Part shown: one piece after another, positions 17,797 through 35,077 of the stretch
Layout of the letters: every line of letters begins with the position of its first letter
Position numbering within the stretch: the stretch's first letter is position 1
Origin: Alphaproteobacteria bacterium
GTDB lineage: Bacteria; Pseudomonadota; Alphaproteobacteria; CADEGL01
Length of the DNA stretch: 56,601 bases
Direction: 5' to 3'
Assembly (NCBI GenBank): GCA_026400755.1
Contig: JAPLOM010000004.1
Coordinates: 66,688 to 123,288, forward strand
Translations under genes and position numbers: made by a program
Notes under the pieces: generated by a model
Databases searched by the model: none
Told to the model about the DNA's origin: nothing
The model's input: the letters and a program-made list of their open reading frames with translations, nothing else

Positions 17797-20700
17797 TCAT
17801 TCGGCCGGCGGTGCCGCGGGCGCGGGCGGCGCGTGATGGGCGGGCGCTTCCGGCTTCTTCCGCCGTTCGCTCAAGCGTTCCAGCACGACGAAGAAGGACG
17901 GCACGAACAAAACCGCCAGGCAGGTCGAGGCCAGCATGCCGCTGAATACGGCGATGCCGATCGACTTGCGCGCGGCGGCGCCGGCGCCCGAGGCCAGCAC
18001 CAGCGGCACGACGCCCAGGATGAAAGCGAAGGACGTCATGACGATGGGCCGGAAGCGGATCTTGGCGGCCTCGACCGCCGATTCCACGATGCTCTTGCCT
18101 TCCTTCAGACGTTTCTCGCGCGCGACTTCGACGATCAGGATGGCGTTCTTGCTGGCCAACGCGATGAGCAGCACCAAGCCGATCTGCGTATAGACATTGT
18201 TAGCGATACCCAGGCCCTTGAGCGCGATCACCGTGCCCAAGAGCGCCAACGGCACCGCGAAGATGACCGCCGCAGGTGCGCTCCAACTTTCGTACTGGCC
18301 GGCCAGCACCAGGAAGACAAGCGCGATGGCCAAGCCGAAGACCAGGAAGACCTGATTGCCGACCAGTTTTTCCTGATAGGAAATGCTGGTCCATTCGTAG
18401 TCGACGCCCGCCGGCAGTGTCCTGGCCGCGACCTGCTCCATGACGGCAAGCGCCTGACCCGAACTAAAGCCCTCGCCCGCCATGCCGTTGATGGCCGCGG
18501 TCGGATAGAGATTGTAGAGCGAGATCAGCGCCGGCCCCTGCGTGTAGCGCACGTCCGTCAACGTGCCGATGGGAACCGTGTCGCCGAACTCGTTGCGGAC
18601 ATAAAGGCGGCGAAGATCCTCCGGCGTCAGGCGGTACTGGTGGTCGGCCTGGACGAAGACCGGGAAGGTGCGGCCGAACTTCGTGATCTGGTTGACATAG
18701 GTCGAGCCCAGATAGGTCTGCAGCGTGTCGAACAGGTTCTTGATCGGAACCTTGAGCGTCTCGGCCTTCACGCGATCCACATCGGCCTTGATCTGCGGTA
18801 CCGATGCACGGAACGGCGTCATCAAATGCTGCAGGCTGGATTGCGCGCCGCCGTTGGCGACCATGGCATCGGCGGCCTGCTGCAGCTTGACGAAATCGAA
18901 GGTCCCATCGGTCAGCTCCAGCTGCATCTGGAAGCCGCCGGATTGGCCCAGGCCCTGAATCGGCGGCGGGATCAGGACCAGCGCGCGCGCCTCCTGAATC
19001 TGCGACATCTGGCCCTGGAGATTGAAGTAGATCGAGCGCAGGTCTTCGCCCTTACCGCGCACGCCCCAATCCTTGAGGATCACATAAGCCACGGCGCCGT
19101 TGGCCAGGCTGGCGTTGTTGTCCAGGACCGAGATTCCGCCGATCGTCACGACGTGATCGACGCCCGGCGTACCCTTCGCGATCTCGTTTACCTTCTGCAT
19201 GACCGCTTCCGTGCGCTCCAGCGAAGCCGCATCGGGAAGCTGAACCGAGACGATCACGTACCCTTGGTCTTCCGGCGGGATAAAGCCGGTCGGGATTGTG
19301 GTCAGCCCCCAGAACGAGAGCGCGACCAGAACGGCCGCGATCGCGACCATCAAGCCGCTGCGATGGACCATGCGGTCGATCAGCCGGACGTAGGCGTGCT
19401 CGACCGGCAGATAGGCGCGGTCGAACGCGCGGAAGAAGATGTTCTTCTTTCCCGGCTTGGGCGGGCGCAGCCAGAGCGCGCACTGGGTCGGCTTCAAGGT
19501 GGCCGCGTTGATGGCGCTGATCAGCGCCGTCGCGGCAATGACCAGGGCGAACTGGCGGTAAAGCTGGCCCACGATACCTGGCAGCATGGCTGCGGGCAGG
19601 AAGACCGACATGAGCACCAGCGTGATGCCGATGATGGGGCCCATCAACTCGGCCATGGCATTGATGGCGGCCTGCTTGGGCGCCACGCCGCGCTCGATAT
19701 GCTGGGATGCGCCTTCCACCACCACGATGGCGTCGTCGACTACGATACCGATGGACAGGACGATCGCGAACAAGGTCATCAGGTTGATGCTGAAGCCGAG
19801 AGCCGCCATGGCCGCGAAGGCGCCGATGATCGTCACGGGCACGGTCGTCGCCGGCACCAGCATGGCGCGGAAATTCTGCAGGAACACCATGATGACGATG
19901 AGGACGAGGATGCCGGCCTCGAACAGCGTGGTGTAGACCTCGTTGATCGAGGCCACGACGAACTTGGTGGTGTCGAAAGGCACCGAGTACTGCAGCCCTT
20001 GCGGGAAGTTCTTCGACATCTTCTTCATCGCCTTGTCGACTTCCTTGGCGACGTCGAGCGCGTTGGCGCCCGGTAGCTGGAAGATGGCGATGCCGGCAGA
20101 GGGCCTGCCGTCGAATTTACAGAATTGGCTATAGGTCTGGGCGCCCAGCTCGACTCGCCCGATGTCCCGGATGCGCGTGATGCGGCCGCCGCTGGCGTTC
20201 TCGGATTTGACGATGATGTCCGCGAACTGACTCGGATCGTCGAGCCTGCCCGGCACGTTGACCGTCAGCTGAAAGCTTTGCCCGATCGGCGCAGGGGGCA
20301 TGCCGACCTGTCCCGCCGCGACCTCCTGGTTCTGGGCGCGAATGGCGTCCATCACATCGGTCGGCGTCATCGACCGCGCATAGAGCTGCTCGGGATCGAG
20401 CCAGATGCGCATGCTGTACTGGCCGATGCCAAACACGGTGACGTTGCCCACGCCTGGCAGGCGCGCCAGTTCGTTGACCAAGCTGATGGTCGCGTAGTTG
20501 CTGAGGAATAGGCTGCTGTATTGGTCGTTTTCCGACGTCAGCGTGATGATCTGCAGCATGGCCGTCGACTTTTTCTGAGTCGTGACGCCTTGCTGCTGCA
20601 CGGCCATGGGCAACTGCGCCATGGCCGCGGAGACGCGGTTCTGCACCTGGACTTGCGCGATATCCAGGTTGGTGCCGACCGCGAAGGTGATGATCAGGTT

Positions 20701-20964
20701 GTAGGTGCCGTCGTTCGCGCTGGTCGACTGCATGTAGATCATGTCTTCGACGCCGTTGACCTGCTGTTCGATTGGCAGGGCCACGGTGTTGACGACGGTC
20801 TGCGCGTTGGCGCCCGGATAAGAGGTCTGAACCTGTACCGTCGGCGGAACGATTTCCGGATACTGCGAGATCGGAAGACCGATAAGCGCGACGACGCCGA
20901 TCAGCATGATCACGATCGCGAGAACGTTCGCGAGGATCGGCCACTCGATGAAAAATTTCGCCAT
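17797..20964 (-). CDS. RND family multidrug efflux transporter, inner-membrane permease
   Basis: A 1055-residue HAE-1 type proton-driven pump of the AcrB/MexF class. The N-terminus MAKFFIEWPILANVLAIVIM and QYPEIVPPTVQV are typical, and the proton-relay aspartate pair appears in LSIGIVVDDAIVVVEG. The C-terminal half ends with FSGMLASTCLAVLFVPSFF followed by a 30-residue alanine/proline-rich tail. It works with the periplasmic adaptor encoded 12 bases upstream and an outer-membrane factor encoded before that. All three lie in one minus-strand operon. The pump itself looks intact although the outer-membrane factor gene is damaged. Confidence 0.96.
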   Translation of the reverse strand: MAKFFIEWPILANVLAIVIMLIGVVALIGLPISQYPEIVPPTVQVQTSYPGANAQTVVNTVALPIEQQVNGVEDMIYMQSTSANDGTYNLIITFAVGTNLDIAQVQVQNRVSAAMAQLPMAVQQQGVTTQKKSTAMLQIITLTSENDQYSSLFLSNYATISLVNELARLPGVGNVTVFGIGQYSMRIWLDPEQLYARSMTPTDVMDAIRAQNQEVAAGQVGMPPAPIGQSFQLTVNVPGRLDDPSQFADIIVKSENASGGRITRIRDIGRVELGAQTYSQFCKFDGRPSAGIAIFQLPGANALDVAKEVDKAMKKMSKNFPQGLQYSVPFDTTKFVVASINEVYTTLFEAGILVLIVIMVFLQNFRAMLVPATTVPVTIIGAFAAMAALGFSINLMTLFAIVLSIGIVVDDAIVVVEGASQHIERGVAPKQAAINAMAELMGPIIGITLVLMSVFLPAAMLPGIVGQLYRQFALVIAATALISAINAATLKPTQCALWLRPPKPGKKNIFFRAFDRAYLPVEHAYVRLIDRMVHRSGLMVAIAAVLVALSFWGLTTIPTGFIPPEDQGYVIVSVQLPDAASLERTEAVMQKVNEIAKGTPGVDHVVTIGGISVLDNNASLANGAVAYVILKDWGVRGKGEDLRSIYFNLQGQMSQIQEARALVLIPPPIQGLGQSGGFQMQLELTDGTFDFVKLQQAADAMVANGGAQSSLQHLMTPFRASVPQIKADVDRVKAETLKVPIKNLFDTLQTYLGSTYVNQITKFGRTFPVFVQADHQYRLTPEDLRRLYVRNEFGDTVPIGTLTDVRYTQGPALISLYNLYPTAAINGMAGEGFSSGQALAVMEQVAARTLPAGVDYEWTSISYQEKLVGNQVFLVFGLAIALVFLVLAGQYESWSAPAAVIFAVPLALLGTVIALKGLGIANNVYTQIGLVLLIALASKNAILIVEVAREKRLKEGKSIVESAVEAAKIRFRPIVMTSFAFILGVVPLVLASGAGAAARKSIGIAVFSGMLASTCLAVLFVPSFFVVLERLSERRKKPEAPAHHAPPAPAAPPAE

Positions 20965-20976
20965 TGCGGATTGGAC

Positions 20977-22155
20977 CTACTTGGACGTCGGCACGGGTGT
21001 CTGCGCGATCTCGCCCTGTTTGGTCGTGACCTTGGCGCCCGGCGCAGCGAACTGCAGCCCATCGATGACAACTAGATCATCATCGGTGATGCCTTCCGTG
21101 ATCACACGCAGGCCATTGACCAGCGCGCCAGTCTTGACGCGCCGCTGCTGCACCGTGTTGTCGTTTCCAACGATCAGCAGATACTGGCCGGCCTGGTCGA
21201 GATTCACCACCTTGTCCGGCACCAAAAGCTGGGGCTCCGCCTGCCCCAGGGGCAAGCGCAACCGCACGAAAAGCCCCGGCAACATCGAGATGTCGTTATT
21301 GGTGAAAACGGCGCGGCCCTGAATTGTGCCGGTCTTGGTGTCGAGACCGGTAGCCACGAAGTCCAGCGTGCCTTCGTGCGGATAGCCCTGTTCGTCCTGC
21401 AGGCCCGCGTAGACCGGTATGCTGGGGACGGTGCCGACCGGGATATTCTGCTCGCGCGCCCATTTGCGGATGCGCAGCAGGTCACGCTCGTTGACGGTGA
21501 AATAGGTGTAAAGCGGCTTGAGCTGCTCGATCATGGCCAACGTGGTCGGCTGACCCGCGCCCACCACGTTGCCAGGGTCGACCAAGTGCCGGCCAACGCG
21601 GCCGGCGAAGGGCGCCAGCACGCGGGTATAGCCCAGGTTGATCTTCGCGACTTCCAGGTTCGCGCGCGCTTCTTCCAGACCCGCGGCGGCCTCGTCGCGC
21701 TGTGCACGCCATTTGTCCACGGTCGCCTGCGAGGTCGCGTTCTGGGCCAGCATACGTCCCTGGCGGTCGAACTCGGTCTGAGCGTTGAGAAGCTGCGCCT
21801 TTTCCGCCGCGATGGTCGCTTCTTGCAGCTTCACTTGCGCGATATAGGGCGCCTGCTCGATCACGAAGAGGAGCTTGTCCTTCTCGACCAGCGTGCCGTC
21901 TTCGAAATTGACCGAGGTCAGATAGCCCTCGACGCGCGCGACGAGAGAGACCGCGTTGAAGGCGGCCGTGGTGCCGGTGGCCTCCAGATAATTGGACACC
22001 TTCTCGCGCACCGGTGGGCTGACCGTGACGGTCGGCGGCGGCGGCGCTTGATAGTTGTTCTCTTCTTTGCATGCGGCCAAAAGCGCGGACAGCGCCAGCG
22101 CCATGACCGCGATCTGCGGTGTCCTCATCATCGTCCGTCCATTCGCTTGCCGCAT
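20977..22155 (-). CDS. RND efflux system periplasmic adaptor (membrane fusion) lipoprotein
   Basis: A 392-residue adaptor that links the inner-membrane pump to the outer-membrane channel. A lipoprotein signal ends in SALLAAC, so the mature protein should be lipid-anchored at residue C29. Barrel-sandwich (lipoyl) halves are visible around ARVEGYLTSVNFEDG and YTRVLAPFAGRVGRH with a helical hairpin between them, followed by beta-barrel and membrane-proximal domains. A start at 22155 has a GTGAGGA site; the paired ATGs at 22131/22128 are alternatives. It begins 11 bases after the outer-membrane factor stop and ends 12 bases before the pump start. Confidence 0.94.
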   Translation of the reverse strand: MRQANGRTMMRTPQIAVMALALSALLAACKEENNYQAPPPPTVTVSPPVREKVSNYLEATGTTAAFNAVSLVARVEGYLTSVNFEDGTLVEKDKLLFVIEQAPYIAQVKLQEATIAAEKAQLLNAQTEFDRQGRMLAQNATSQATVDKWRAQRDEAAAGLEEARANLEVAKINLGYTRVLAPFAGRVGRHLVDPGNVVGAGQPTTLAMIEQLKPLYTYFTVNERDLLRIRKWAREQNIPVGTVPSIPVYAGLQDEQGYPHEGTLDFVATGLDTKTGTIQGRAVFTNNDISMLPGLFVRLRLPLGQAEPQLLVPDKVVNLDQAGQYLLIVGNDNTVQQRRVKTGALVNGLRVITEGITDDDLVVIDGLQFAAPGAKVTTKQGEIAQTPVPTSK

Positions 22156-22165
22156 GGGTTGATCC

Positions 22166-23776
22166 TCACCAATCCGGCGCGCGGATCAGCGCGTCGCGCT
22201 GGTCCTGTGTGGGGGTCTGATGGTTGGCGGGATCGAGCAGGTTGCCCCAATCGGTCCGCTTGGCCATGGCCTCCTTGATGTCGTTGGGCACGAAGTCGTT
22301 GCCGTCGCGCAGCTCCCAGCCGCCGCCGAGCGCGCGGTACACCGAGACCAGCCCCTGGGGCACGTTGCCCAGGCTGATGGCTAGGTTGTCTTGCACCGAG
22401 AGAAGCTGCTGCTGCGCCGTCAGCACCGTCGTGTAATCCGTTTGCCCTTCGCGATAGCGGACCAGCGCCAGGTCGGCGGACTTCGCCGCCGAGCGCGCCG
22501 CTTCGCGGTAGCGCGCAACGCCCTGCTGCGCCATGAGATAGGCGGCCAAGCCGTCCTCCACTTCCTTTTGCGCCTGCAAAACCGTGTTCTGGTATGCCAG
22601 TGCGGCCTTCTGGAACGCGGCATCCTGCGCGCGCACCTGGTTGGTGAGCTGACCGTAATTCAGGAACGGAAACGTCACCGAGGGGCCGATCGACCCCGTC
22701 CGGCTGCCCCAGGTGAACACGTCGCTGAGCGAGGCCGTGCCGACGTTGCTGGAGGCGAAGCCGAAGAAACCGCTGAGCGAGAAGGCCGGATAGAGCTGGG
22801 CCTTCGCGACGCCGATCTGGGCCGATTGAGACGCCGCGACCAGTTCGGCCTGACGGACGTCGGGACGCCGGCGCAACAGATCCTTCGGAATGCCGATCGC
22901 GATTTGCGACGGCGCCGCGGGAATGGCGCTTGGCCCTTCCAATAGCGCGCGGACGCGCGCGGGCGGAACACCCAGCAGAACCGCCAGTGCATTCTTGGCC
23001 TGGCGCAAGCTGGTTTCAAGACCGGGAATCTGCGCCTCGGTCTGAGCCAGTTCCGTCAACGCCTGCTCGACGTCCAACAGGCTGGTCTCGCCTTCATTGT
23101 AGCGGACATTGGCGATGCGAAGGCTTTCCTTCTGAATCTCGACGTTCGCGCGCGCGATGCGGATACGATCCTCGAAGGTGCGGATCGTGATATAGGTGCT
23201 GGCCACGTCAGCGGTCAGCGTGACGAGCGCCGAATCGTAACCCGCGATGGACGACATCAGCGTGGCGTCGGCCGATTCGATCGCGCGGCGGAATTTGCCC
23301 TAGAAATCGATTTCCCAACTGGCGGTCAGACCGAACTGGGTCGACTAGCTGTTGAGCGTCTGGAAACCCGGAATCGGGATGGCAGTCGAGGAATTGGGGC
23401 TCTGACGCGCGGCCGTGTAATCGCCCGTCAGCGCCTGCTGCTGGGGATAGCTTTGGCCGATCGCGACGCCCAACTGCGCGCGTGCTTCGAGGACGCGCAC
23501 GCCGGCGATCTGCAGCGAATAGTTGCTCTTATAGGCTTCGTCGATCAGGCGGTTGAGCGCGGGATCGCCGAGCGCCTCCCACCACTTGTCGCTCTTGAAC
23601 GGCGTCTCGGGCAGCGCGCTGTCCTCGTTCTCCGTCCACTGGCTGGAAACCTTGGCCTCCGGCGTCTCGAAATCGGGGCCGACCTTGAAGCAGGCCGTCA
23701 CGAGAAGAGCGGCAAGGACCGGCAAAAGCCGGACGCAAGGGACGCGAAATGGGGCTGTCGGCAGTGCTGCGCGCAT
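22166..23776 (-). pseudogene. RND outer-membrane factor (NodT/OprM family) with two in-frame amber codons
   Basis: Read through, this is a 536-codon gene: signal and lipobox (LLVTAC) near residue 29, the family opening KVGPDF..P, and two OEP repeats. TAG codons interrupt it at 23345-23347 (codon 144) and 23300-23302 (codon 159). The sequence between and around them stays perfectly family-like (STQFGLTASWEIDF, then GKFRRAIESADATL), so no frameshift is involved. The second TAG falls where homologues have the W of an FWGK motif, consistent with TGG to TAG; the first could come from a TAC, TAT or TGG codon. As it stands only a 143-residue fragment and a possible internal restart could be made. 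Genuine decay, suppression or sequence error remain open. Confidence 0.82.
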
Positions 23777-23915: not shown

Positions 23916-25553
23916 TTAACCGCCCTTTTGCCCATAAAACGCCGCCGCGTGGGGCACCGGGGGCGTCTTGCCGCGAATCGCGTCGGCCAGCTTCTCAGCC
24001 ATCATGATGGTGGGTGCGTTCAGGTTGGCGGTTAGCATGCGCGGCATGATGGAGGCGTCGATGACGCGCAAGCCCTCGGCGCCCCGCACCCGGGCGGCGG
24101 AATCGACCACCGCCATCTCGTCCACGCCCATCCGGCAGGTACAAGCCGGATGATACTCGGTGCCCAAGGTGGCCCGCAGGCAGGCCAAAATCTCGGCATC
24201 GGTCTTCACATCCGGGCCGGGGAAAATCTCCTCGGCGCGGTACGGGTTCCAGGCGGATTGCTGGCCGACCTCCCGCGTGCGCTTGAGGGCGTCGATCAGA
24301 TCCTGCCGGTCCTCCGCCGTATCCATGTAGTTGGCGACCATATGAGGTTTCGCGGCCGGGTCGGCCGAGCGCAGCGTGATCCGCCCCCGGCTGGTCGGCC
24401 GCAACAGGTGGATGCAGTACTGATAGCCGTGCACGACCTCGAGCCGGTTCGGCTTGGCCACGCGAATGATGGGCAGGAACTCGTGCTGGATGTTGGGCAC
24501 TTCGATCTCGGGCCGCGTGCGGAAGAGCGCGCCGGTCTCGAAGAAGTTGCTGGCGCCGAGGCCCTGCTTCAGAAGCAGCCATTCCGCCGCCAACCTGATG
24601 CGACCGGCGAAACCCAATTGATGCGCCAGCGAGCGCACGCCGTCGCGCGCGCGGTACTGCACCGCCGTGGCCGGATGGTCCTCCAAATTACGCCCCACGC
24701 CCGGCGCATGGATCGCGGCCTGGATGCCGTGTTCGCGCAGATGCCCGGCATCGCCGATGCCGGAGAGCATCAGAAGCTGCGGGCTGTTGATAGAGCCCGC
24801 GCACAGGATGACCTCGCGCGCGCAGGCGACCGTCTCGACCGTGCCTTTGTGACGCAGGCGTATGCCGGCCGCCCGCTTGCCGTTCAGAAGCACGGCCTCG
24901 ACCAGGCACCGCGTACGCAGCTTTAGATTGGGCCGGTGCAACGCCGGGCGCAGATAAGCGCTGGCCGTGTTCCAACGGCTACCCCGATACGTGGTCCGCT
25001 GTTGCAGATGGACGCCCTCGGGCTTGAAGCCATTGGGGTCCTCGGTGAAGCCCAAGCCGGCCTGCTTGCCAGCCTCTAGAAAGGCTTGGAAAAACGGCTC
25101 CTCGCCTTTCGCCGTGGTGATGCGCAACGGCCCGTCGCCGCCGCGCCATTCATCCGCGCCGCGGTCGTAATTCTCGAGCTTGCGGAAATAGGGCAAGCAA
25201 TGGACCCAGCTCCACTCGGGCAGTCCGGCGGCGGCCCACCCGTCGAAATCGAGCGGATGACCGCGCACATAGGTCATGCCGTTGATGGAGGACGAGCCGC
25301 CGAGCACGCGCCCGCGGGGATGGAAGATCATGCGGCCGTTGAGATGGGGCTCGGGCCCCGCCTCATAGCTCCAATTGAAACGCGGCGCGCGATAGGCGAA
25401 GGGAAGCGCGCCCGGCATCTGCAGAAACGGGCTTCGATCCGAGCCACCAGCCTCGATCAAAAGAACGCGCGTGCTGGCGTCCTCGCTCAGCCGGTTGGCC
25501 AGAACGCAGCCGGCGGAGCCGGCGCCGACAATGATGTAGTCGAATTCAGCCAT
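23916..25553 (-). CDS. GMC family FAD-dependent oxidoreductase (choline/alcohol dehydrogenase-like)
   Basis: A 545-residue flavoprotein that oxidises an alcohol to an aldehyde or ketone. The dinucleotide fold DYIIVGAGSAGCVLANRL opens the protein, the first GMC signature region GRVLGGSSSINGMTYVRG is present, and the catalytic histidine and asparagine appear in EYHPACTCRMG and TANLNAP near the C-terminus. The ATG at 25553 overlaps the stop of the TauD-like gene (TGATG), so translation is coupled and the start is secure; the frame upstream is a shadow. Context with two TauD-type dioxygenases, a racemase-like enzyme and a Rieske oxygenase suggests a shared oxidative pathway for one imported compound. 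BetA-like choline activity is not supported by context. Confidence 0.92.
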   Translation of the reverse strand: MAEFDYIIVGAGSAGCVLANRLSEDASTRVLLIEAGGSDRSPFLQMPGALPFAYRAPRFNWSYEAGPEPHLNGRMIFHPRGRVLGGSSSINGMTYVRGHPLDFDGWAAAGLPEWSWVHCLPYFRKLENYDRGADEWRGGDGPLRITTAKGEEPFFQAFLEAGKQAGLGFTEDPNGFKPEGVHLQQRTTYRGSRWNTASAYLRPALHRPNLKLRTRCLVEAVLLNGKRAAGIRLRHKGTVETVACAREVILCAGSINSPQLLMLSGIGDAGHLREHGIQAAIHAPGVGRNLEDHPATAVQYRARDGVRSLAHQLGFAGRIRLAAEWLLLKQGLGASNFFETGALFRTRPEIEVPNIQHEFLPIIRVAKPNRLEVVHGYQYCIHLLRPTSRGRITLRSADPAAKPHMVANYMDTAEDRQDLIDALKRTREVGQQSAWNPYRAEEIFPGPDVKTDAEILACLRATLGTEYHPACTCRMGVDEMAVVDSAARVRGAEGLRVIDASIMPRMLTANLNAPTIMMAEKLADAIRGKTPPVPHAAAFYGQKGG

Positions 25554-26404
25554 CAGCGCGGGCGGTCGCCTTCGATCGTCACGCGGTGCATGACCCGGCG
25601 TTTGCCGAAATAGTCGTCGATCGGCGTGTGCTGGGTGCAGCGATTGTCCCACAAGCCGAGCGAGCCTTCCTGCCAGCGCAGGCGGCAGGTGAATTCGGGG
25701 CGGGTCGAGAATTCGAAGAGATAGGCGAGCAGCGGTTTGCTCTCTTCCTCCGTCCAGCCCTTGAAGCGCAGCGCGTAGTGGGGGTTCACGAACAGCGCCT
25801 TGCGGCCGGTTTCCGGGTGGGTGCGGATGACCGGATGTTCGGTCTCCGTCTCGGCCGCCGTCTTGCGGTCGGCGACCAGCTTGGCGTTGGTGATCGCGCT
25901 GGTGGGCTCGTCCCCATAGACATTCCGGCCGCCGTGGATACCGATCAAGTCGTCCAACATCGACTTCATGCCCAGCGTCATGGCCTCGTAGGCCATGTAC
26001 TGGTTGGCGAACAGTGTGTCGCCGCCGATGGTGGGAACCTCCTTGGCATAGAGCATGGAGCCCAGCACGGGGCGTTCCTGGTAGGTCACGTCGGAATGCC
26101 AGCCCTCGGCGAAGATCTTGCGATCCGTCGGCTCGCGCCGGATCTCGAGAATCTCGGGATGGCCGTCCAGACCTTTCAGGAATCTATGAGTGCTGAGCGG
26201 GCCGAAGCGGGCCGCGAATTCTTTCTGCTGGCCCGGCGTCAACGCCTGATCGCGGATCGCGATCACCAGATGATCGAGGAACGCCCGGTGGATTTCGGTA
26301 AACATCTCGTCGTCGAGTCGGGACAGGTCCGCGCCGAAGATCTCGGCGCCGAGCGCGCCGGTGAGCGGGCGGACTTCGATGCGGCGGTAGGATGCGCTGG
26401 CCAT
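25553..26404 (-). CDS. TauD/TfdA family Fe(II)/2-oxoglutarate dioxygenase, first copy
   Basis: A 283-residue non-haem iron dioxygenase. The HxD pair is in GWHSDVTYQERP, the third iron ligand in NRCTQHTP, and the 2-oxoglutarate-binding arginine in RRVMHRVTI. The N-terminus IEVRPLTGALGAEIFGADLS is classic for the family. Such enzymes hydroxylate substrates such as taurine, alkylsulfates or aryloxyacetates, leading to their cleavage; the substrate here is unknown. It is coupled to the GMC oxidoreductase downstream by a TGATG overlap and follows a small ABM-like gene by 40 bases. Confidence 0.92.
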   Translation of the reverse strand: MASASYRRIEVRPLTGALGAEIFGADLSRLDDEMFTEIHRAFLDHLVIAIRDQALTPGQQKEFAARFGPLSTHRFLKGLDGHPEILEIRREPTDRKIFAEGWHSDVTYQERPVLGSMLYAKEVPTIGGDTLFANQYMAYEAMTLGMKSMLDDLIGIHGGRNVYGDEPTSAITNAKLVADRKTAAETETEHPVIRTHPETGRKALFVNPHYALRFKGWTEEESKPLLAYLFEFSTRPEFTCRLRWQEGSLGLWDNRCTQHTPIDDYFGKRRVMHRVTIEGDRPR

Positions 26405-26444
26405 GGCGGAGTCTTTCCCCTCCGCCGCGATAAAGTCCAGCCCG

Positions 26445-26738
26445 CTAGACGACCGAGGCGGGAACCTCGCACTGCACGATCTGGGGCTCGGAGGCGAAGA
26501 AGGTGCGAAAATGCGCCATCACGTTCTTCAGTTCCGGGCTGTTGAGGTTACGCTCGATGGCGGCCTCGCTCTCCCACAAGGTGACCGACATCACCTTGCA
26601 GGCCTTGCGGTCCATCAGCAGCATGTAGCCCGCGATCAACCCCTTACCCTTGAACACGCCCGTCGCGCGCGGCCATTCCGCGATGGCGGTTTCCAGCTGG
26701 TCGGGCTTCATCGTCACGGAGAACACGCGGGCGAGCAT
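26445..26738 (-). CDS. Small ABM-like dimeric alpha/beta-barrel protein, first copy
   Basis: A 97-residue protein with the pattern of antibiotic-biosynthesis-monooxygenase-like ferredoxin folds: an N-terminal strand MLARVFSVTM, a helix, and MSVTLWESEAAIE. Such proteins act as cofactor-free monooxygenases or as small isomerase or accessory subunits. It is clearly homologous to the 97-residue product of 47433-47726: both open M.ARV, have EW and FK near the middle, then DR, S.T.WESE and NSPE or GSPE. An AGGAG ribosome-binding site precedes the ATG. It lies between the binding-protein gene and a TauD gene, so a role in the same pathway is likely but the reaction is unknown. Confidence 0.75.
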   Translation of the reverse strand: MLARVFSVTMKPDQLETAIAEWPRATGVFKGKGLIAGYMLLMDRKACKVMSVTLWESEAAIERNLNSPELKNVMAHFRTFFASEPQIVQCEVPASVV

Positions 26739-26764
26739 CGGTCAGCTCCTCGGTTGCAGGCAAA

Positions 26765-26807
26765 GGAAAGACCCGCCGGGACCGCGGCGTCGAACGGTCC
26801 CGGCGGG
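26765..26807 (-). terminator. Terminator of the PotD-type binding-protein gene
   Basis: A perfect 13-bp GC-rich stem (26772-26784 with 26795-26807) and ten-base loop lie 8 bases beyond the stop of the minus-strand gene at 26815; the minus strand continues TCTTTCCTTTGCC. It may only attenuate, since no promoter is obvious before the next minus-strand gene 26 bases on, which would then depend on read-through. Confidence 0.82.
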
Positions 26808-26814
26808 CGGCGTC

Positions 26815-27918
26815 TTAGGTGAGCTGCCAGGCCTTGAAGCGCTTGGTCAGTTCGTCCAGGCGGCCGGGCTCGCCCCACCATTCCGGGTTGACCACGAGAT
26901 GGTTGGGATTGTTCGGGTCGGGCACCCAGTCGCGCCGAATCTCCGGCTTGACCATCTCCATGCCCTTCTTCTTCACCGGCGCGTAAGTCATGACGTCGCA
27001 GAACTTGGCCAGCAGGTCGGGCTTCACCTGATAGTTCAACAGCTTCATGGCCGCCGTCTTGTTCTTGGCGCCCTTGGGCACGGTGTAGGTGTTGAGGAAG
27101 ATCAGCATCTGCTTCTGAGCGTATCCCAACGGCAGACCCTCGGCCTGCGCCGCGAAGACGCGGCCGCTGTAGGTGTTGGTGAAGTCCAGCTCGTTCTTGG
27201 CGATCAGCTGCACCGTCTGGGGCGTCGAATCGATCCAGATGTTCACGTGCGGCTTGATGCGATCCATCACCTTGAACGCGCGCTCCACGTCGATCGGATA
27301 GACGTTCTTGGGCGCGACGCCGTCGGCCAACAGCGCGATCTCGAACGTGTCGTTCGGGCGCGGACGCAGGCCGCGGCGGCCCGGAAATTTTTTCACGTCC
27401 CAGAACTCGGTCCACGTCGCCGGGTACTTTCCTTCGGGAAAGCGTTTGGCGTCATAGCCGATGCTAGCCGTGTAGCTGTAGGCCGAGACCCAATACTCGG
27501 CCTTGGCCTCGGGATAGATCAGGTCGTCCATCTGCACGATGGAATAGTCGATCTTCTCCAGAAGCCCGTCGCGCGCGGCGGACACAGATTGGGTCGGCAA
27601 CGCCTCGACCACATCCCACTCCACGTTGCCCGTGGCGACGCCCGCCTTCAGCTTGGCCATGTCCACGGCGGCGGTGGAGACGACCTTGATGCCCGTCTCG
27701 GCGGTGAACGGATCCCAGAAAATCTTGCGCAGCCATTCTTCGTATTGGCCGCCGTAGCTCGCGATGTAGATGGTCTCGGCCGCCCGGGCCTTGCCCGGCG
27801 TGAGAATCAGCGGCCAGCTCACAGCGGCCGCCGCCGCGCCCGTGCCGATGAGGAATTTGCGCCGGGACGCATCCACGCGCCGGCCCGCTTGCGTCTTGCC
27901 CAACCGTTTGTCGGTCAT
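26815..27918 (-). CDS. PotD-type ABC transporter periplasmic binding protein with Tat signal
   Basis: A 367-residue receptor of the extracellular solute-binding family that includes spermidine/putrescine and other amine receptors. It begins with a twin-arginine signal (SRRKFLIGTGAAAA) ending near ARAAE, then TIYIASYGGQYEEWLRK and ETGIKVV, the family opening. The start at 27918 has a GGAGCAGGA ribosome-binding site; the longer frame to 28023 overlaps the divergent gene's regulatory region and is rejected. No permease or ATPase gene accompanies it, so it is an orphan receptor in this window. It is divergent from a TauD gene, with a 177-base shared promoter region that contains an operator-like element. 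Confidence 0.9.
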   Translation of the reverse strand: MTDKRLGKTQAGRRVDASRRKFLIGTGAAAAAVSWPLILTPGKARAAETIYIASYGGQYEEWLRKIFWDPFTAETGIKVVSTAAVDMAKLKAGVATGNVEWDVVEALPTQSVSAARDGLLEKIDYSIVQMDDLIYPEAKAEYWVSAYSYTASIGYDAKRFPEGKYPATWTEFWDVKKFPGRRGLRPRPNDTFEIALLADGVAPKNVYPIDVERAFKVMDRIKPHVNIWIDSTPQTVQLIAKNELDFTNTYSGRVFAAQAEGLPLGYAQKQMLIFLNTYTVPKGAKNKTAAMKLLNYQVKPDLLAKFCDVMTYAPVKKKGMEMVKPEIRRDWVPDPNNPNHLVVNPEWWGEPGRLDELTKRFKAWQLT

Positions 27919-28012
27919 GGTCCTGCTCCCTGACGTTGCATGCCTCCGTTGTCCGCGTCCGTGCGCGGCGTCTGCCTTTGCGGCTTGTTCATCAAGTATC
28001 CGATTCCGTAAG

Positions 28013-28030
28013 TGGTCAATCAATCATTTA
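28013..28030. promoter_or_regulatory. Operator-like element, copy 1 (divergent binding-protein/TauD region)
   Basis: The 18-base sequence TGGTCAATCAATCATTTA matches the element at 31066-31083 at 16 of 18 positions. It lies 66 bases upstream of the TauD start and 95 bases upstream of the binding-protein start. The two copies suggest binding by the TetR regulator encoded at 31114-31848; this is inference from repetition and position. Confidence 0.6.
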
Positions 28031-28095
28031 TTGCTTTACACAATCCGCGCGCGGGTCCTAGGCTTGCCGGCTTGGCTCTTCGAGGAGGAACGGAG

Positions 28096-28962
28096 ATGTC
28101 CGTCACACTGTCGTCGAAAATCGAGGTCGTCCCCAGCGGTGGGGCCTGCGGCGCCGAATTGAAGGGCGTCGACGCCTCCCGGCTGCTGTCGCCGGAGGCC
28201 AAGAACGCGGTCAAGCAGGCCCTGTTCACGCACGGTGCCGTCTGCCTCCGCGATCAGAAAATCACCGATGCCCAGCTCGTGGCCTTTGGGCGCAGCTTCA
28301 GCGATCTGCACGCCTATCCGGTGACGGAGTACGAGAAGCCGAAGGGCCTTCCGCCCGAGGTCGAGCTGATCTCGAACATCCTGGTCGATGGCAAGCCGAT
28401 CGGCGCGCTCGGTTCGGGCGAAGCGACTTGGCATTCGGACATGTCGATGTTCGACATCCCCGCCTCCTTCACCTACCTCTACGCCGAGAAGGTGCCGCCT
28501 GTGGGCGGCAACACACGCTTCGCCAATCTGTATGCCGCGTATGACGCGCTGTCCGACGATCTGAAACGGAAGATCGAAGACCGCAAGTCGATCCACGACA
28601 TCGCCTATATCGCCGACGGGCGCCTGCGCCCGCCCTACAAGCACGTCACCGACAAGTCGAAGGGGCCCGGCGCGCAGCATCCGATCGTGCGCACCCATCC
28701 CGAATCGGGACGCAAGGCGCTCTATCTCGGGCGCAAGGGCTACGGCTACATCTTCGGTTACCCGGTGCCGGAAAGCGACGTTCTGCTCGACACGCTGTGG
28801 GATCACATGGTCAGCCCGCAATTCGTGTGGGAACACGAGTGGCGCGTGGGCGACGTCCTGATCTGGGACAATCGCGGCGTGGCGCACAGCCGCGGCACGA
28901 TCGACCCCACCCTGCCCCGCCTCATGCGCCGCATCGTGGGCATGGGCGAACCGCCGGTCTGA
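28096..28962 (+). CDS. TauD/TfdA family Fe(II)/2-oxoglutarate dioxygenase, second copy
   Basis: A 288-residue dioxygenase of the same family as the product of 25553-26404 but from a different branch. Iron ligands are visible in WHSDMSMFDIP and WDNRGVAHSRG, with the 2-oxoglutarate arginine in RLMRRIVG. The start at 28096 is supported by gaggaggaacggag; the frame extends 28 codons upstream through the regulatory region and is rejected. The next gene starts three bases after its stop. Its substrate is unknown; pairing with a racemase-family enzyme and an orphan binding protein implies catabolism of an imported, possibly chiral, compound. Confidence 0.92.
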   Translation: MSVTLSSKIEVVPSGGACGAELKGVDASRLLSPEAKNAVKQALFTHGAVCLRDQKITDAQLVAFGRSFSDLHAYPVTEYEKPKGLPPEVELISNILVDGKPIGALGSGEATWHSDMSMFDIPASFTYLYAEKVPPVGGNTRFANLYAAYDALSDDLKRKIEDRKSIHDIAYIADGRLRPPYKHVTDKSKGPGAQHPIVRTHPESGRKALYLGRKGYGYIFGYPVPESDVLLDTLWDHMVSPQFVWEHEWRVGDVLIWDNRGVAHSRGTIDPTLPRLMRRIVGMGEPPV

Positions 28963-28964
28963 CC

Positions 28965-29699
28965 GTGGCCATCTATAAAAAGCGTCCTCACGCCGAGAGT
29001 TACGGCAACGCCGTCGGCATCCTTCTGCTCGACGGGCGCGCGCCCTTCGTGCCGGGCGATGTCGGCAACGCCTCCAGCTATTCCTATCCGGTCGTCTACA
29101 AGACGGTCGAAGGCCTGACCACCATGCGCCGCCTGAACCAGGAGCCGGGCTGGGAAGACAAAGTGGTCGAGGCCGCGAAGGAGCTGGAGCGCCAAGGCGT
29201 GCGCGGCATCTCGAGCGACTGCGGCTTCATGATCCAGTACCAGGACGCGGTCTGCGACGCCGTGCACATTCCCGTCTTCCTTTCGACCCTGCTGCAGCTG
29301 CCCTTCATCGGCCGCACCTTGGCGCCGGACCGGCCCATCGGCGTGGTGACCGCCGATTCCAGCAACTTCAACGAAGACTTCATGCGCCGCACGGGCACGC
29401 TGCCGCCCAACCCCATCGTGATCCGCGGGCTTCAGAACGAGCCCGAGTTCGGCACCGCGGTGATGCAGGAGAAAGGCACGCTCGATTCGGACCTGATCGC
29501 GGGCGAAGTCGAGGCGGCCTGCCGTGACATGGTGCGCGAGCGTCCCGACCTGGCCGCGATCCTGCTGGAATGCTCGCTGCTGCCGCCCTATGCCAAGCGC
29601 GTGCAGGACGCGTTGGACTTGCCGGTGTTCGATTTCATCTCATTGATCGACTATGCCGAGGGCGGCACCCGCCAGCGGCATTACACCGGCAATTACTGA
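28965..29699 (+). CDS. Asp/Glu/hydantoin racemase superfamily protein
   Basis: About 244 residues from a GTG start at 28965, three bases after the TauD stop. Both catalytic-cysteine regions of the superfamily are present: SSDCGFMIQYQ in the first half and LLECSLLPPYA in the second. The opening GVGILLLDGRAP-like segment (AVGILLLDGRAPF) and PVVYKTVEGLT are typical of the broad group that includes aspartate/glutamate racemases, hydantoin racemases, maleate isomerase and arylmalonate decarboxylase. Which reaction applies cannot be decided; a two-base (thiol-thiol) racemisation or isomerisation is expected. The 3' end overlaps that of the convergent Rieske gene by seven bases. Confidence 0.85.
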   Translation: MAIYKKRPHAESYGNAVGILLLDGRAPFVPGDVGNASSYSYPVVYKTVEGLTTMRRLNQEPGWEDKVVEAAKELERQGVRGISSDCGFMIQYQDAVCDAVHIPVFLSTLLQLPFIGRTLAPDRPIGVVTADSSNFNEDFMRRTGTLPPNPIVIRGLQNEPEFGTAVMQEKGTLDSDLIAGEVEAACRDMVRERPDLAAILLECSLLPPYAKRVQDALDLPVFDFISLIDYAEGGTRQRHYTGNY

Positions 29700-31036
29700 G
29701 ACAATTCCCGCAAGTGCCGTGTGACCTCCGGCTGCCGCTCGCCGTCGGGCAGCGCCTCGTACTCCACATAGATCGCGGCCACTTTGCGCGACAGCTCTAA
29801 GATCGCGGCGCGGTCATCCGTGCCGGCGCGCGCGGGTGCGCGCAGGACCGTGTCGCCGGCATGGCTCGGCACGCATCCGTTCTTGGCCAGATCCATCGGC
29901 TGCACGGGACGTTCGCCGGCCGCGGTCGCGCGGATGGCCGCGCGCAAACGTTGGCGCCGCATGGCCACGCCCACGTCCGTCGTTCCCAGATGTTCCGCCG
30001 CATGGACGACAATGGCGCCTTGGCTTTCCAGCGCCTCGAAGTCGCTGGGCTCGCGCCTCCGCTGCTCGTAGGGGCGGTCGCGCAGGCCGCCCGCTTCCAG
30101 TATCTGGAACGCATCGGGCGTCTTGTCCGCATCGCGTGGCGGATCAGAGCGCGGGCCGAAATAGCGCAGTCCGAAAACGCGCGTATGGGTGTCGTCCACC
30201 GGCACGATCCAGCGGCTGAAACCCGCGCGACCGAAGAGGCGTTCCTTTTCGCCGTCGAGCGAAGTGACCGCGCCCGACTGCGCCATGTTCGGCGCGACAT
30301 TGTCGTGGGTGCGGATCCAAACGTAATCGCCAACGCGGCGGGCGTTCGTGTAGAAGAAGCCGAGCGGACGTTGGTGATAATCGACCACCGGCAAGGCGCC
30401 GAAGATGGCCGAGAATTGCGGCCCGCTGATGGACGTGTGCAGAAACGACGAGTGCACCGGGTCCATGCTGTTGTCCATGATCTGCAGCCAGTTGCAGTGA
30501 TAGGGCACGCAATAGGTCACAGATTCCGCGCCGGGTAATTCGAACGTGTCGAAGATGGGGAATTCCGGCGTCTCTTCCGGCGGGCCGAAATAGGCGAAGA
30601 TCAGGCCCTTGTACTCGCGTACCGGATAGGCCGGCTGAAACACCTTTTCCTTGAGGCGGCTCGTCGGCGGCTCGCCGGGAGTCTCGAGCACGGCGCCGTC
30701 GGGCGCGAACAGCCAGCCATGATAACAGCAGCGCAGGCCGCTTTCCTCGACGCGGCCGAATTCGAGCGACGCGCGGCGATGGACGCAATGCTTGTGCAGA
30801 AGCCCGACCTGCCCCTGCCCGTTGCGGAAGATCACCAGCGTCTCGCCCAGGATCGTGACCAGGCGCGGCTCGGTGCCTAGCTCCGTCGCCATCAGGATCG
30901 GCTGCCAGAACCGGCGAAGATATTCGCCGCAGGGCGTGCTTGGGCGCACATGGGTCAGCTCGGCGTCTTCCGCCGGCTCGCGGGTACGGTGGTAGCCCGA
31001 ATAGCGCATCTCTTGAGAGCTGCCGCGAACGCTCAT
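29693..31036 (-). CDS. Rieske [2Fe-2S] aromatic ring-hydroxylating-type oxygenase, alpha subunit
   Basis: A 447-residue oxygenase. The Rieske cluster ligands are CVH and CCYHGW, about 20 residues apart, at residues near 90-112; the mononuclear-iron motif NSMDPVHSSFLH follows the bridging segment NWLQIMD, so both metal sites are intact. The protein resembles the phthalate-dioxygenase/vanillate-demethylase branch, whose members hydroxylate or O/N-demethylate substrates. A GGAGG site precedes the ATG at 31036; the apparently longer frame upstream runs through the TetR gene and is a shadow. No reductase gene is nearby, so electrons must come from elsewhere. An operator-like element lies 30 bases upstream. 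Confidence 0.93.
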   Translation of the reverse strand: MSVRGSSQEMRYSGYHRTREPAEDAELTHVRPSTPCGEYLRRFWQPILMATELGTEPRLVTILGETLVIFRNGQGQVGLLHKHCVHRRASLEFGRVEESGLRCCYHGWLFAPDGAVLETPGEPPTSRLKEKVFQPAYPVREYKGLIFAYFGPPEETPEFPIFDTFELPGAESVTYCVPYHCNWLQIMDNSMDPVHSSFLHTSISGPQFSAIFGALPVVDYHQRPLGFFYTNARRVGDYVWIRTHDNVAPNMAQSGAVTSLDGEKERLFGRAGFSRWIVPVDDTHTRVFGLRYFGPRSDPPRDADKTPDAFQILEAGGLRDRPYEQRRREPSDFEALESQGAIVVHAAEHLGTTDVGVAMRRQRLRAAIRATAAGERPVQPMDLAKNGCVPSHAGDTVLRAPARAGTDDRAAILELSRKVAAIYVEYEALPDGERQPEVTRHLRELSQ

Positions 31037-31065
31037 CGCGCCCTCCTTCGCTGCCTTGCCCTTAT

Positions 31066-31083
31066 TGGTCAATCTATCACTTA
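31066..31083 (-). promoter_or_regulatory. Operator-like element, copy 2 (upstream of the Rieske gene)
   Basis: TGGTCAATCTATCACTTA, 16 of 18 bases identical to 28013-28030, in the 77-base gap between the Rieske start and the TetR stop. On the coding (minus) strand it contains TTGACC. Its location between regulator and target makes TetR binding the simplest explanation. Confidence 0.6.
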
Positions 31084-31113: not shown

Positions 31114-31848
31114 CTAGCCCCGCCGCCGGCGCCGGTCGAGTTGCTCGACCTTCAGGCTGTCCTCGGCGTCGCCCGCATGCAGGCGGCGAAGCTGGCTTCG
31201 CGCGCCTTCCAGGAACGTGCCGACCTGCAAGCAGACCAGATCGGACATGTCGTCCGGCATGGGCATGCCGTAAACGTGCTTGCGGATTCCGAGGAAAACC
31301 ACGGCGCCGTGCAGGATCATGGCCAGCTCGCGCTCGCCGCGCATCATCGGCTGACGCTCGAAATCGGGCAGGCCGCAATCCGCGCGAAGCTCGGCGATCA
31401 CAGGCCGCAGCATCTGGTCGGTCAGAGGCACGCTGTAGCGCCGCGCCATGTCGGCGCCGTCCAGACCGGCGCGCACGAACAGGCGCACGGCGATGGAATC
31501 GGCGCGCTCCATATAGGCGACGTAGAGACGAACGAGCCTTTCTTCCAACGGCTGCGCGCGATCGGCGATCAGCATATCCCACGCATCGTCCCACAGCCGG
31601 ACGAAGGTGGTTTCGAACACGCGTTCGATGAGCGCCTGCTTGGAGGGGAAATAGCGGTAGATCAGAGCCTGGGCCACGCCCAGGCGGTCGGCCAACTCAC
31701 GCGTCGAGGTCTCGAGTCCATGCTCGGCGAAAAAGGCGGCGGCTTCCTCGACGATGCGGCGGCTGCGCTCCGCGGGCCGAAGCCGGCGCCGCGGCGGTGA
31801 TTCGGCCTGCAACCCGTTCTTGGTGTCCCCAGCGGCGGCTTTGGCCAT
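31114..31848 (-). CDS. TetR family transcriptional regulator
   Basis: About 244 residues from the ATG at 31848. The helix-turn-helix is ERSRRIVEEAAAFFAEHG, then TSTRELADRLGVAQALIYRY and FPSKQALIERVF, a textbook TetR N-terminal domain; the C-terminal ligand domain is not assignable. The upstream ATG at 31884 would add 12 residues. It is followed on the same strand by the Rieske gene, and the intervening gap carries one of two copies of an 18-base element, so it probably regulates that gene and the divergent binding-protein/TauD pair. The last residues are very basic (LDRRRRRG). Confidence 0.9.
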   Translation of the reverse strand: MAKAAAGDTKNGLQAESPPRRRLRPAERSRRIVEEAAAFFAEHGLETSTRELADRLGVAQALIYRYFPSKQALIERVFETTFVRLWDDAWDMLIADRAQPLEERLVRLYVAYMERADSIAVRLFVRAGLDGADMARRYSVPLTDQMLRPVIAELRADCGLPDFERQPMMRGERELAMILHGAVVFLGIRKHVYGMPMPDDMSDLVCLQVGTFLEGARSQLRRLHAGDAEDSLKVEQLDRRRRRG

Positions 31849-31896: not shown

Positions 31897-32655
31897 TTAG
31901 CCCCGCCCGATCAGCGGCATTTTGGTCGCCATCACCGTCATGAACTGGACGTTGGCGTCGAGCGATAGGCTGGCCATGTAGACCACGGCCTTGGCCACGT
32001 TCTCCACGTCCATGGTGGGCTCGGGCATGATCGTGCCGTTGGCCTGGGGCACGCCATCCTTCATCTTCGCGGTCCTGGGCGTGCCCGCGTTGCCGATGTC
32101 GATCTGCCCGCAGGCGATATCGAAATGGCGGCCGTCCAGCGAGGTCGATTTGGTCAGGCCCGTGATGGCGTGCTTGGTCGCGGTGTAGGGCGCCGAGTTC
32201 GGCCGCGGCGCCTGCGCCGAGATCGAGCCGTTGTTGATGATGCGGCCGCCGCGCGGCGTCTGATTCTTCATCAGGCGGAACGCCTCCTGCGTGCACAGGA
32301 ACGGCCCGGTCAGGTTGGTGTCGACGGCGCCCTTCCATTGCTCGTAGGACAGATCCTCGAGCGGGATCGGCGGCGCGCCGATGCCGGCGTTGTTGAAAAG
32401 GAGGTCGAGGCGCCCGAACGTCTCCTTGGTCTTGGCGAACAGCGCCTTGACCGATGCGGGGTCGCGCACGTCGGTCGGCACCACCAGCGTGCGGCGGCCC
32501 GACGCGGCGCCGAGCTTGACCGTCTCGTCCAACGCCTCACGCCGGCGGCCCGCCAGCACGGCGTCATAACCGGCCTTCATCAAGGCCAGGGCGACATGCC
32601 GTCCGATCCCCGTGCCCGCCCCCGTGATGACAGCGATCTTCTCCTGCGTGCCCAT
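31897..32655 (-). CDS. Short-chain dehydrogenase/reductase
   Basis: A 252-residue classical SDR. The cofactor motif TGAGTGIG is at residues 11-18, NNAG at about 89-92, and the catalytic set N, S (NGSIS), Y and K (PYTATKHAI) is complete, so an NAD(P)-dependent alcohol/ketone oxidoreductase is expected. A GGAGGGG ribosome-binding site precedes the ATG. It lies upstream of the TetR gene on the same strand (48 bases apart) and may be part of the same catabolic module, perhaps following the alcohol-forming oxygenases. Confidence 0.9.
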
Positions 32656-32786: not shown

Positions 32787-34463
32787 ATGGCACGGCCGAT
32801 GAATGGCGTGGCGGCGGCCCCTGCGGCGACCGGCCAAAGGCGGGGCAAGATCCTGTTCTGGCTGCGCGCCATCGCCGGGCATGCCGCGCTCGGCGGGATC
32901 TACCTCGCGGCCTATGTCGGGCTCGATTGGCTCAGCTTCTTCGAGGAGTTCCGCGGCCTCGACGTCACGCTGTGGAACCCCCAGCCCGCCCTGACCCTGA
33001 TCCTCATCATCCAGCGCGGCACGGCCTACACACCCTACGCGCCGGCCGCTCCGTTCCTGTCCGATTGGATCGTCCGCGACTTCCCGCTCAGCCTGGCCGG
33101 CACCCTGGCTTATGACGGGATCTTCGCCGTCGGCTATGTCGCCCTCGCGTTCCTCATGCGGCAGTTCCGCAGCATCACCGCCGATGACGCGCGCGTGCAG
33201 GACATGGTGTGGCTGGTCTCGACCATCGTGCTGGGTTGCCTGATCATATCGTCGGCATGCGCGGAGACGTTGGAGCTTCTCGGCATCATCAAGGAGCACC
33301 GCGTGCGCCAGATCATCGGCGCGTTCTGGATCGGCGACGCGTCTGGCATCCTGGCCTTCCTGCCGTTCTTCATCACCTGGCCCGACGCGCTGCGCACGTG
33401 GCGCCGGGGAACCTCGCGGCAACGGATCATCGATCTTTCGGTGTTTGCCTTCACCGTGGCCTTCGCGCTGTTCATCGTCTTCGGGATCGACGATGCGCGC
33501 AGCCCGGGCTTCTTCTATCTCCTCTTCATTCCCGTCTGCTGGGCCGCGGTGCGCCTGGGCGTGGGCGGCGCGGCGACGGCCTGCGTGACGGTCCAGCTTG
33601 TCCTCGTCCTGACGCTCGACCTGCTGGACTATCCGCCGCAGGAATTCCGCCCCTTCCAGGTCATGATGCTGGCGCTCACGGGCACGGGTCTCTTGATCGG
33701 CACGGTGATCACCCAACGCGGCCGCGCCGAGGCCGCGCTGCGCGCGCGAGAAGCCGAGCTGTCCCGTCTCGGCCGGGTGACGTCCCTGGGCGCCATGGGC
33801 TCGGCGCTGGCGCACCAGATCAGCCAGCCGATCGCCTCCGTCGCCACCTACGCCCATGCGGCGCAACGCATGGTGGCCGCCGAGGCGCCCGACCTTGGCC
33901 GCCTGAATGAGGTCCTGTCGAACATCGCGGGCGACGCGCGAAGAGCGGGCGAGATTTTGCGCCGCCTGCGCGACTTCATCGCCCATGGCGGACAGCAGAC
34001 CCAGTCGATCGACGTCACAGCACTGCTCCAGCGCAGCGTGCGAACCGCACGGGAAAGCGAAAGCGGCCACGTGCTCGACATCCGCCTCCGCGCTGCCTTG
34101 CTGCCGGCCGTCATGGGCGACGAGCTGCAATTGGAGCAGGTGTTCCTGAACCTCCTGCGCAATGCCATCGACGCCACCGCGCAGATTCCCGCCGGGCGAC
34201 GGCGCATCGCCATCGAGACCACCGCAACCGATGGAGCCGTCGAAATCGCGATCGAGGACAATGGCGCGGGTATCGCCGCGAACTTTGAACCCCTTTTGTT
34301 CGAGCCGTTCGAGACCACCAAGGCCACGGGCATGGGCTTGGGTCTGTCGATCAGCCGGCAAATCGTGGAGTCGCACGGCGGAAAGCTGTGGTATGAGCGG
34401 GGCGAAGGGGGCGGCGCGCGTTTCGTCGTCCGCCTGCCGTCCGTGAAGGGAGCATTGCCATGA
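32787..34463 (+). CDS. MASE1-type membrane sensor histidine kinase
   Basis: A 558-residue kinase. The first 310 residues contain about eight hydrophobic segments with MASE1-like features (RGTAYTPYAPA, FWIGDASGILAFLPF), so sensing is probably within the membrane. The transmitter follows: H-box LGAMGSALAHQISQPIASV with the phosphorylated H343, N-box NLLRNAIDA, G1 IEDNGAGI and G2 GMGLGLSISRQIVESHGG. The H-box type matches the FixL/DctB/TodS group. The final ATG overlaps the response-regulator start (ATGA at 34460), giving a coupled two-component pair. The signal is unknown. Confidence 0.9.
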   Translation: MARPMNGVAAAPAATGQRRGKILFWLRAIAGHAALGGIYLAAYVGLDWLSFFEEFRGLDVTLWNPQPALTLILIIQRGTAYTPYAPAAPFLSDWIVRDFPLSLAGTLAYDGIFAVGYVALAFLMRQFRSITADDARVQDMVWLVSTIVLGCLIISSACAETLELLGIIKEHRVRQIIGAFWIGDASGILAFLPFFITWPDALRTWRRGTSRQRIIDLSVFAFTVAFALFIVFGIDDARSPGFFYLLFIPVCWAAVRLGVGGAATACVTVQLVLVLTLDLLDYPPQEFRPFQVMMLALTGTGLLIGTVITQRGRAEAALRAREAELSRLGRVTSLGAMGSALAHQISQPIASVATYAHAAQRMVAAEAPDLGRLNEVLSNIAGDARRAGEILRRLRDFIAHGGQQTQSIDVTALLQRSVRTARESESGHVLDIRLRAALLPAVMGDELQLEQVFLNLLRNAIDATAQIPAGRRRIAIETTATDGAVEIAIEDNGAGIAANFEPLLFEPFETTKATGMGLGLSISRQIVESHGGKLWYERGEGGGARFVVRLPSVKGALP

Positions 34464-35077
34464 ACCGGGATTCGACCGTCTACATCGTCGAGGACGATCA
34501 CTCCATGCGGGGCGCCCTGGCCCTGCTGCTGGAAGGCGAAGGTTACCGCACCGAGCAATACGGCTCGGCCGAGGAGTTCTTGTCGGCCGCCGACGAGCCG
34601 CGCACGGGCTGCGCCCTGGTCGACGTGCGGCTTCCCGGCAAAAGCGGCCTGGATCTTTTGCGCACGCTGACCGAGAAGGCGGCACCCGTTCAGGTCGTGA
34701 TGATCAGCGGCCACGGCGACATTCCCATGGCCGTATCGGCCATGCGCGCGGGCGCCCTGCATTTCATCGAAAAACCGTTCGAGCCGGCGGCGCTGGTGGG
34801 GATCGTCTCCGAGGCCGTGCGGCTGGCCGAAAGCCGGCCACAGAACACCGATTCAATCGAATCCCTGCGCACGCGTTTCCATACGCTGACCCCGCGCGAG
34901 CACGAAATCCTGCGCCATGTGGCCCAGGGCCTGTCCAGCAAGCAGATCGCGGCGGAGCTTCGCATCAGCCCGCGCACGGTCGACAATCACCGCGCCAGCA
35001 TCATGGACAAGATGAAGGCCACGAACCTGTCGATCCTGATCCGCATGACGATGCTGCTGGGCGGCGACCGGCCCTAG
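34460..35077 (+). CDS. FixJ-type response regulator
   Basis: A 205-residue regulator. The receiver domain (1-120) has acidic pocket E11/D12/D13, phospho-acceptor D55 in VDVRLPGKSG and conserved K105 in EKPFEP. A LuxR/FixJ helix-turn-helix follows at about 140-200 (LTPREHEILRHVAQGLSSKQIAAEL, then SPRTVDNHRASIM; a usual 'T-PRE' linker). It is the cognate partner of the kinase with which it overlaps by four bases. Its targets are not evident. The stop shares a CTAG palindrome with the stop of the convergent gene. Confidence 0.93.
   Translation: MNRDSTVYIVEDDHSMRGALALLLEGEGYRTEQYGSAEEFLSAADEPRTGCALVDVRLPGKSGLDLLRTLTEKAAPVQVVMISGHGDIPMAVSAMRAGALHFIEKPFEPAALVGIVSEAVRLAESRPQNTDSIESLRTRFHTLTPREHEILRHVAQGLSSKQIAAELRISPRTVDNHRASIMDKMKATNLSILIRMTMLLGGDRP

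Follow-up and report, generated by a model that had tools for sequence, protein, structure and literature searches.

Most regulators of the TetR family are repressors, AtrA being an activator (PMC3511530). The same survey covers TetR with tetA and other TetR repressors that act on divergent neighbours. The locus described here resembles these systems in the TetR_N domain of its putative regulator, in a palindromic predicted operator placed between divergent genes and in local targets, most of which are enzymes. It lies within 56,601 bp of alphaproteobacterial DNA, the whole of which is referred to as the window, and consists of an island of oxygenase and binding-protein genes with a tetR gene at one side.

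A repeated element in two intergenic regions

Two 18-mers, both on the + strand, occur at 28013-28030 and 31066-31083. They are identical at 16 of 18 positions and differ at two, as the preliminary description had reported, and both are intergenic, one before the genes of a periplasmic binding protein (PBP) and a dioxygenase (TauD2) and the other before a Rieske oxygenase gene. The count expected from dinucleotide shuffles of the window is 0.03 per window at up to 3 mismatches. When the entire genome (3.36 Mb, 87 contigs) was searched at the same tolerance, these two matches were the only ones obtained; a scatter of unrelated copies, which the preliminary description had regarded as fatal to its reading, was not seen. 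The reversed control pattern gave no match at up to 3 mismatches in the same 87 contigs.

Comparison with relatives indicated that the full element is 22 bp long and begins four bases before the 18-mer. It is an imperfect palindrome, TAAGTGRT-N6-ATCAYTTA, at 28009-28030 and 31062-31083. The two 22-bp copies are identical to each other at 18 of 22 positions, and their self-complementarity is modest (14/22 and 12/22 positions). The first copy, TAAGTGGTCAATCAATCATTTA, is the predicted operator 1 and occupies the gap between the divergent PBP and TauD2 genes. The second, TTATTGGTCAATCTATCACTTA, is the predicted operator 2 and precedes the Rieske gene, 25 bp from its start codon.

Other matches were considered and set aside. 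The symmetrical consensus also matched at a third place in the genome (C35:16827-16848; L121:1501-1522), immediately before a threonine aldolase gene; this match is kept in neither of the two relatives described below and was taken as chance. A profile match at C4:22734 is partial (positions 2-19) and has no counterpart in the sister species. Matches to the 22-mer were present in 27 other genomes of the class; among the four closest ones that were read, two lie inside the coding sequence of EF-G, and no homologues of the island proteins were found near any of the four. Literature searches on the operator string or on the island gene set returned nothing relevant.

Genes of the island and candidate promoters

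The leftward unit, on the - strand, spans 23916-27918. It begins with PBP (26815-27918), a periplasmic solute-binding protein of the SBP_bac_8, PotD/GABA/agropine type by domain and family matches, and continues with a small ABM-domain protein of the antibiotic biosynthesis monooxygenase fold (26445-26738, domain match), TauD1, a 2-oxoglutarate-dependent dioxygenase of the TauD/TfdA family (25553-26404, domain and structural-relative match), and a GMC oxidoreductase of the choline-dehydrogenase subfamily (23916-25553, domain and family match). The genes are separated by gaps of 76 and 40 bp, followed by a 1-bp overlap. The rightward unit, on the + strand, comprises TauD2, a second TauD/TfdA-family dioxygenase (28096-28962, domain and structural-relative match), and an Asp/Glu/hydantoin-racemase-like protein (28965-29699; PRK07475, domain and family match). 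The Rieske oxygenase alpha subunit, phthalate-4,5-dioxygenase/LigXa-like by domain and structural relatives, is encoded at 29693-31036 on the - strand. It is followed at 31114-31848, on the same strand, by the gene of a 244-aa TetR-family regulator, the proposed binder (Pfam TetR_N, PF00440, 8.8e-16, above the cut-off). An SDR dehydrogenase gene (31897-32655, - strand, domain match) lies upstream of tetR in the same direction; no operator precedes it and its membership in the regulon is uncertain.

The nearest solved relatives of PBP are GABA-sensor, agropine and polyamine binding proteins; those of TauD1 are phenoxypropionate and taurine dioxygenases, that of TauD2 is a 2,4-D dioxygenase, and those of the Rieske protein are of the phthalate-4,5-dioxygenase type. 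From these similarities it may be guessed that a small compound, either nitrogen-containing or an aromatic ether, is taken up and cleaved oxidatively. Of the Rieske relatives found in other places, with 42-51% identity, 17 were read, and within their short flanks none had an adjoining island gene. No permease or ATPase gene for PBP is present in the island. A PBP paralogue with 59% identity (C57:14352) is likewise without a recognised ABC permease beside it, and the nearest permeases of the window, at 40.8-43.6 kb, flank an NMT1-type binding protein. The left flank of the island (17797-23257) carries an AcrB-type RND pump and a NodT-type outer membrane efflux gene, unrelated to the operator. 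A MASE1-domain histidine kinase and a LuxR-type response regulator (32787-35077) directly adjoin the island on the other side.

Promoters in the gap between PBP and TauD2 were read from the sequence; a consensus promoter scan detected nothing. The candidate PBP promoter (27995-28023, - strand) has TTGATT (28018-28023, inside operator 1), a 17-bp spacer and GATACT (27995-28000). It matches the consensus at only 8 of 12 positions and was missed by the scan; its hexamers and spacing are kept in the second genus. The candidate TauD2 promoter (28035-28064, + strand) has TTTACA (28035-28040), an 18-bp spacer and TAGGCT (28059-28064). It is kept in both relatives and falls below the threshold of the scan. 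The end of operator 1 is 5 bp upstream of the -35 hexamer of this promoter.

Conservation of the sites in relatives

The locus was compared with that of a sister species of the same genus (G001) and with that of a member of another genus of the family (G002). In G001 the same island is present and both sites are identical letter for letter. In G002 the island consists of ABM-PBP, the divergent TauD2-racemase unit and Rieske-TetR, with protein identities of 62-76%, and a FAD-dependent DAO oxidase is found beside ABM where the window has TauD1 and GMC. The G002 gap between PBP and TauD2 contains TAAGTGATCAATCAATCACTAA, a counterpart of operator 1 that is closer to symmetrical than the window copies. 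In this comparison the operator block and the promoter hexamers are among the best-conserved stretches of the gap.

A counterpart of operator 2 is absent directly before the Rieske gene of G002. A second strong site in G002, TAGCTGGTCAATTGCTCAATAA, occupies the gap that separates tetR from an EamA transporter gene in divergent orientation (L034:12194-12215), which suggests autoregulation and an added target at that position. As tetR in G002 is directly upstream of the Rieske gene, the operator on the tetR side may still govern the latter through a tetR-Rieske transcript.

A shared motif beside homologous regulators

Were the product of tetR the binder, operators of a similar kind would be expected beside its homologues, even among different neighbouring genes. 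A genome scan yielded homologues with 33-61% identity in Alpha-, Beta- and Gammaproteobacteria. Their neighbours are mostly unrelated to the island genes and, as named by sequence reading, include a P460-type cytochrome, a cupredoxin-like protein, a flavin monooxygenase with a hydroxyisobutyrate-dehydrogenase-like gene, amidohydrolases and others. With a model built from three island sites, 36% of 42 homologue loci gave a score of at least 15 bits in the vicinity of tetR, as against 1.7% for length-matched intergenic DNA farther away. This contrast understates or blurs the signal and is not a clean negative control, because the motif also turned up in two of three draws when the farther DNA of these loci was searched. 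Its occurrence there may reflect larger regulons. The clean control is provided by loci of unrelated TetR proteins: with the de novo motif described next, none of 51 reached 15 bits, and EM on these loci gave other, weaker motifs.

De novo motif discovery was carried out by palindromic EM on 37 dereplicated homologue loci from which the clade of the window had been excluded, related loci not being independent of one another. EM converged on TAATTTATCAnnTGATAAATTA from the twelve best seeds. Within the 56.6-kb window this motif ranks the sites at 31062 and 28009 first and second, with 25.7 and 23.7 bits, followed by 10.1 bits for the next match (a 13-bit lead); 8 of 1000 column-permuted motifs also place both window sites in the top two. 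The two G002 sites are likewise ranked first and second (26.8 and 23.2 bits; next 10.8). Of the 41 best sites with a score of at least 15 bits, 40 either just overlap a called gene start or precede one by no more than 300 bp, and the remaining one is operator 2 of the window, whose Rieske gene was missed by the simple gene caller. About a third of the homologue loci have no such site within 2.5 kb. Since dinucleotide-shuffle p-values were too permissive for intergenic DNA (p<=0.05 was reached in 15 of 46 control regions), reliance was placed on score comparisons and on the unrelated-TetR loci.

The homologues conserve the HTH and recognition-helix region, TRELAxRLGVxQxLIYRYFPSK, and other TetR proteins of the genome match this TetR weakly, in the HTH region only. 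Three homologues with 53-61% identity (L035:9633, L036:7753 and L042:11554) are encoded beside a conserved P460-type cytochrome-like gene, accompanied in L042 by a cupredoxin-like gene, and nearly perfect palindromes such as AAAGTTGTCAATTGACAACTTT are found at nearby gene starts of these loci.

A motif learned beside the homologues ranks the window sites at the top and does not reach 15 bits at any of the 51 unrelated TetR loci. These results suggest that the neighbouring TetR (31114-31848) is very probably the binder of both sites. The preliminary description had proposed the nearby TetR as the simplest binder; the proposal gains support from this motif and from conservation of the motif and of the tetR-containing island in a second genus.

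Proposed regulation and alternative explanations

The sites obtained by computation are rare and conserved, and they fit the operator type seen beside the homologues. On this basis we propose with good confidence that the TetR-family protein encoded at 31114-31848 has the repeated element as its operator and would repress the PBP, TauD2 and Rieske units until released by a compound of the pathway. Each of the 22-bp palindromes (28009-28030 and 31062-31083) would be occupied by a TetR dimer. On operator 1, which is common to the two divergent units, the dimer would cover the PBP -35 region and abut the -35 of the TauD2 promoter, so that PBP-ABM-TauD1-GMC and TauD2-racemase could both be kept off by a single dimer. 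On operator 2, which would serve the Rieske gene only, it would cover the stretch just before that gene. A compound imported by the pathway or formed in it would presumably bind TetR and cause its release.

The preliminary description had taken the genes from 23.9 to 31.8 kb as a single regulon. This span appears slightly too wide: the PBP unit, the TauD2 unit and the Rieske gene each have a predicted operator, whereas none is found in front of the SDR-tetR unit in the island of this genome. The extents of the units are judged from gene spacing, and TauD1 and GMC, both missing from the G002 island, are included on the basis of this operon layout.

The mode of action calls for separate consideration. 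Relative to the TauD2 promoter, operator 1 would span roughly -62 to -41, where activators typically bind, and it stops 5 bp short of the candidate -35; the survey cited above has one activator, AtrA, among nine tested proteins (PMC3511530). Activation or mixed regulation by the bound TetR nevertheless seems unlikely, as the PBP -35 hexamer is inside operator 1 and TetR proteins are mostly repressors (PMC3511530), and the promoter positions behind the argument are themselves inferred. Given the operator position and the behaviour of most members of the family, TetR most likely acts by repression, which a compound of the pathway would lift.

Binding by another regulator is highly improbable. 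The LuxR-type response regulator (34460-35077), whose kinase gene (MASE1, 32787-34463) is beside the SDR gene, might be considered, since the pair adjoins the island and is kept in the sister species. G002, however, retains the operator and tetR but has EamA, pseudouridine synthase and ABC exporter genes in place of the kinase pair, and the motif learned de novo goes with TetR homologues. A role of the repeat as a shared promoter element or sigma-factor site, as its overlap with a candidate -35 might suggest, has even less to recommend it: the genome has just two copies, sigma sites are not palindromes spanning 22 bp, and the element is found again next to TetR homologues but not next to unrelated TetRs. 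The copy number of just two would also be compatible with chance similarity or with recent duplication of an intergenic fragment. Such an origin can be practically discarded, as 0.03 copies are expected per window, homology ends at the element, and conservation in G001 and in G002, the latter of another genus, refutes it.

Wider reading and comparison with known systems

If a repressor operator is accepted as the preferred reading, an anonymous oxygenase and binding-protein island becomes a defined regulon, open to testing, whose operators have exact coordinates, and a reporter carrying operator 1 could serve in screening for the substrate or inducer. It appears somewhat better supported than not that the homologues form an undescribed TetR subfamily across Alpha-, Beta- and Gammaproteobacteria, in which the operator type (TWAKTKATCRnnYGATMAMTWA) and the recognition helix have stayed the same while target genes and presumably inducers have been repeatedly exchanged. 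The operator would also be mobile within the regulon, the G002 copy being before tetR and not directly before the Rieske gene. Such a conserved operator code with exchanged targets is a broader point of moderate interest, and the motif could be used to predict targets of homologous TetR regulators in many proteobacteria.

In contrast to TetR/tetA, tetR of the window does not diverge from the main target genes. The principal operator is found at a distance of 3 kb, in the gap between two target units, and in this genome no operator belongs to tetR itself. The locus is like that of BetI with betA in having a TetR-family regulator together with a GMC enzyme of the choline-dehydrogenase subfamily, but the GMC gene is missing from the G002 island. 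Identity with BetI was rejected, the regulator scoring 23.6 and 23.0 bits against cut-offs of 118 and 201.3, and identity with KstR was rejected likewise (23.8 bits against the NCBIfam cut-off of 280). KstR/KstR2 and Mce3R show weak HTH-level similarity to the window TetR, in the N-terminal half only, and they too represent TetR control of oxygenase-rich catabolic genes. The regulator carries the TetR_N domain, and its predicted palindromic operators are near the promoters of its targets, as expected of the TetR family. A pair of TetR operators defining a small catabolic regulon is an ordinary kind of gene switch.
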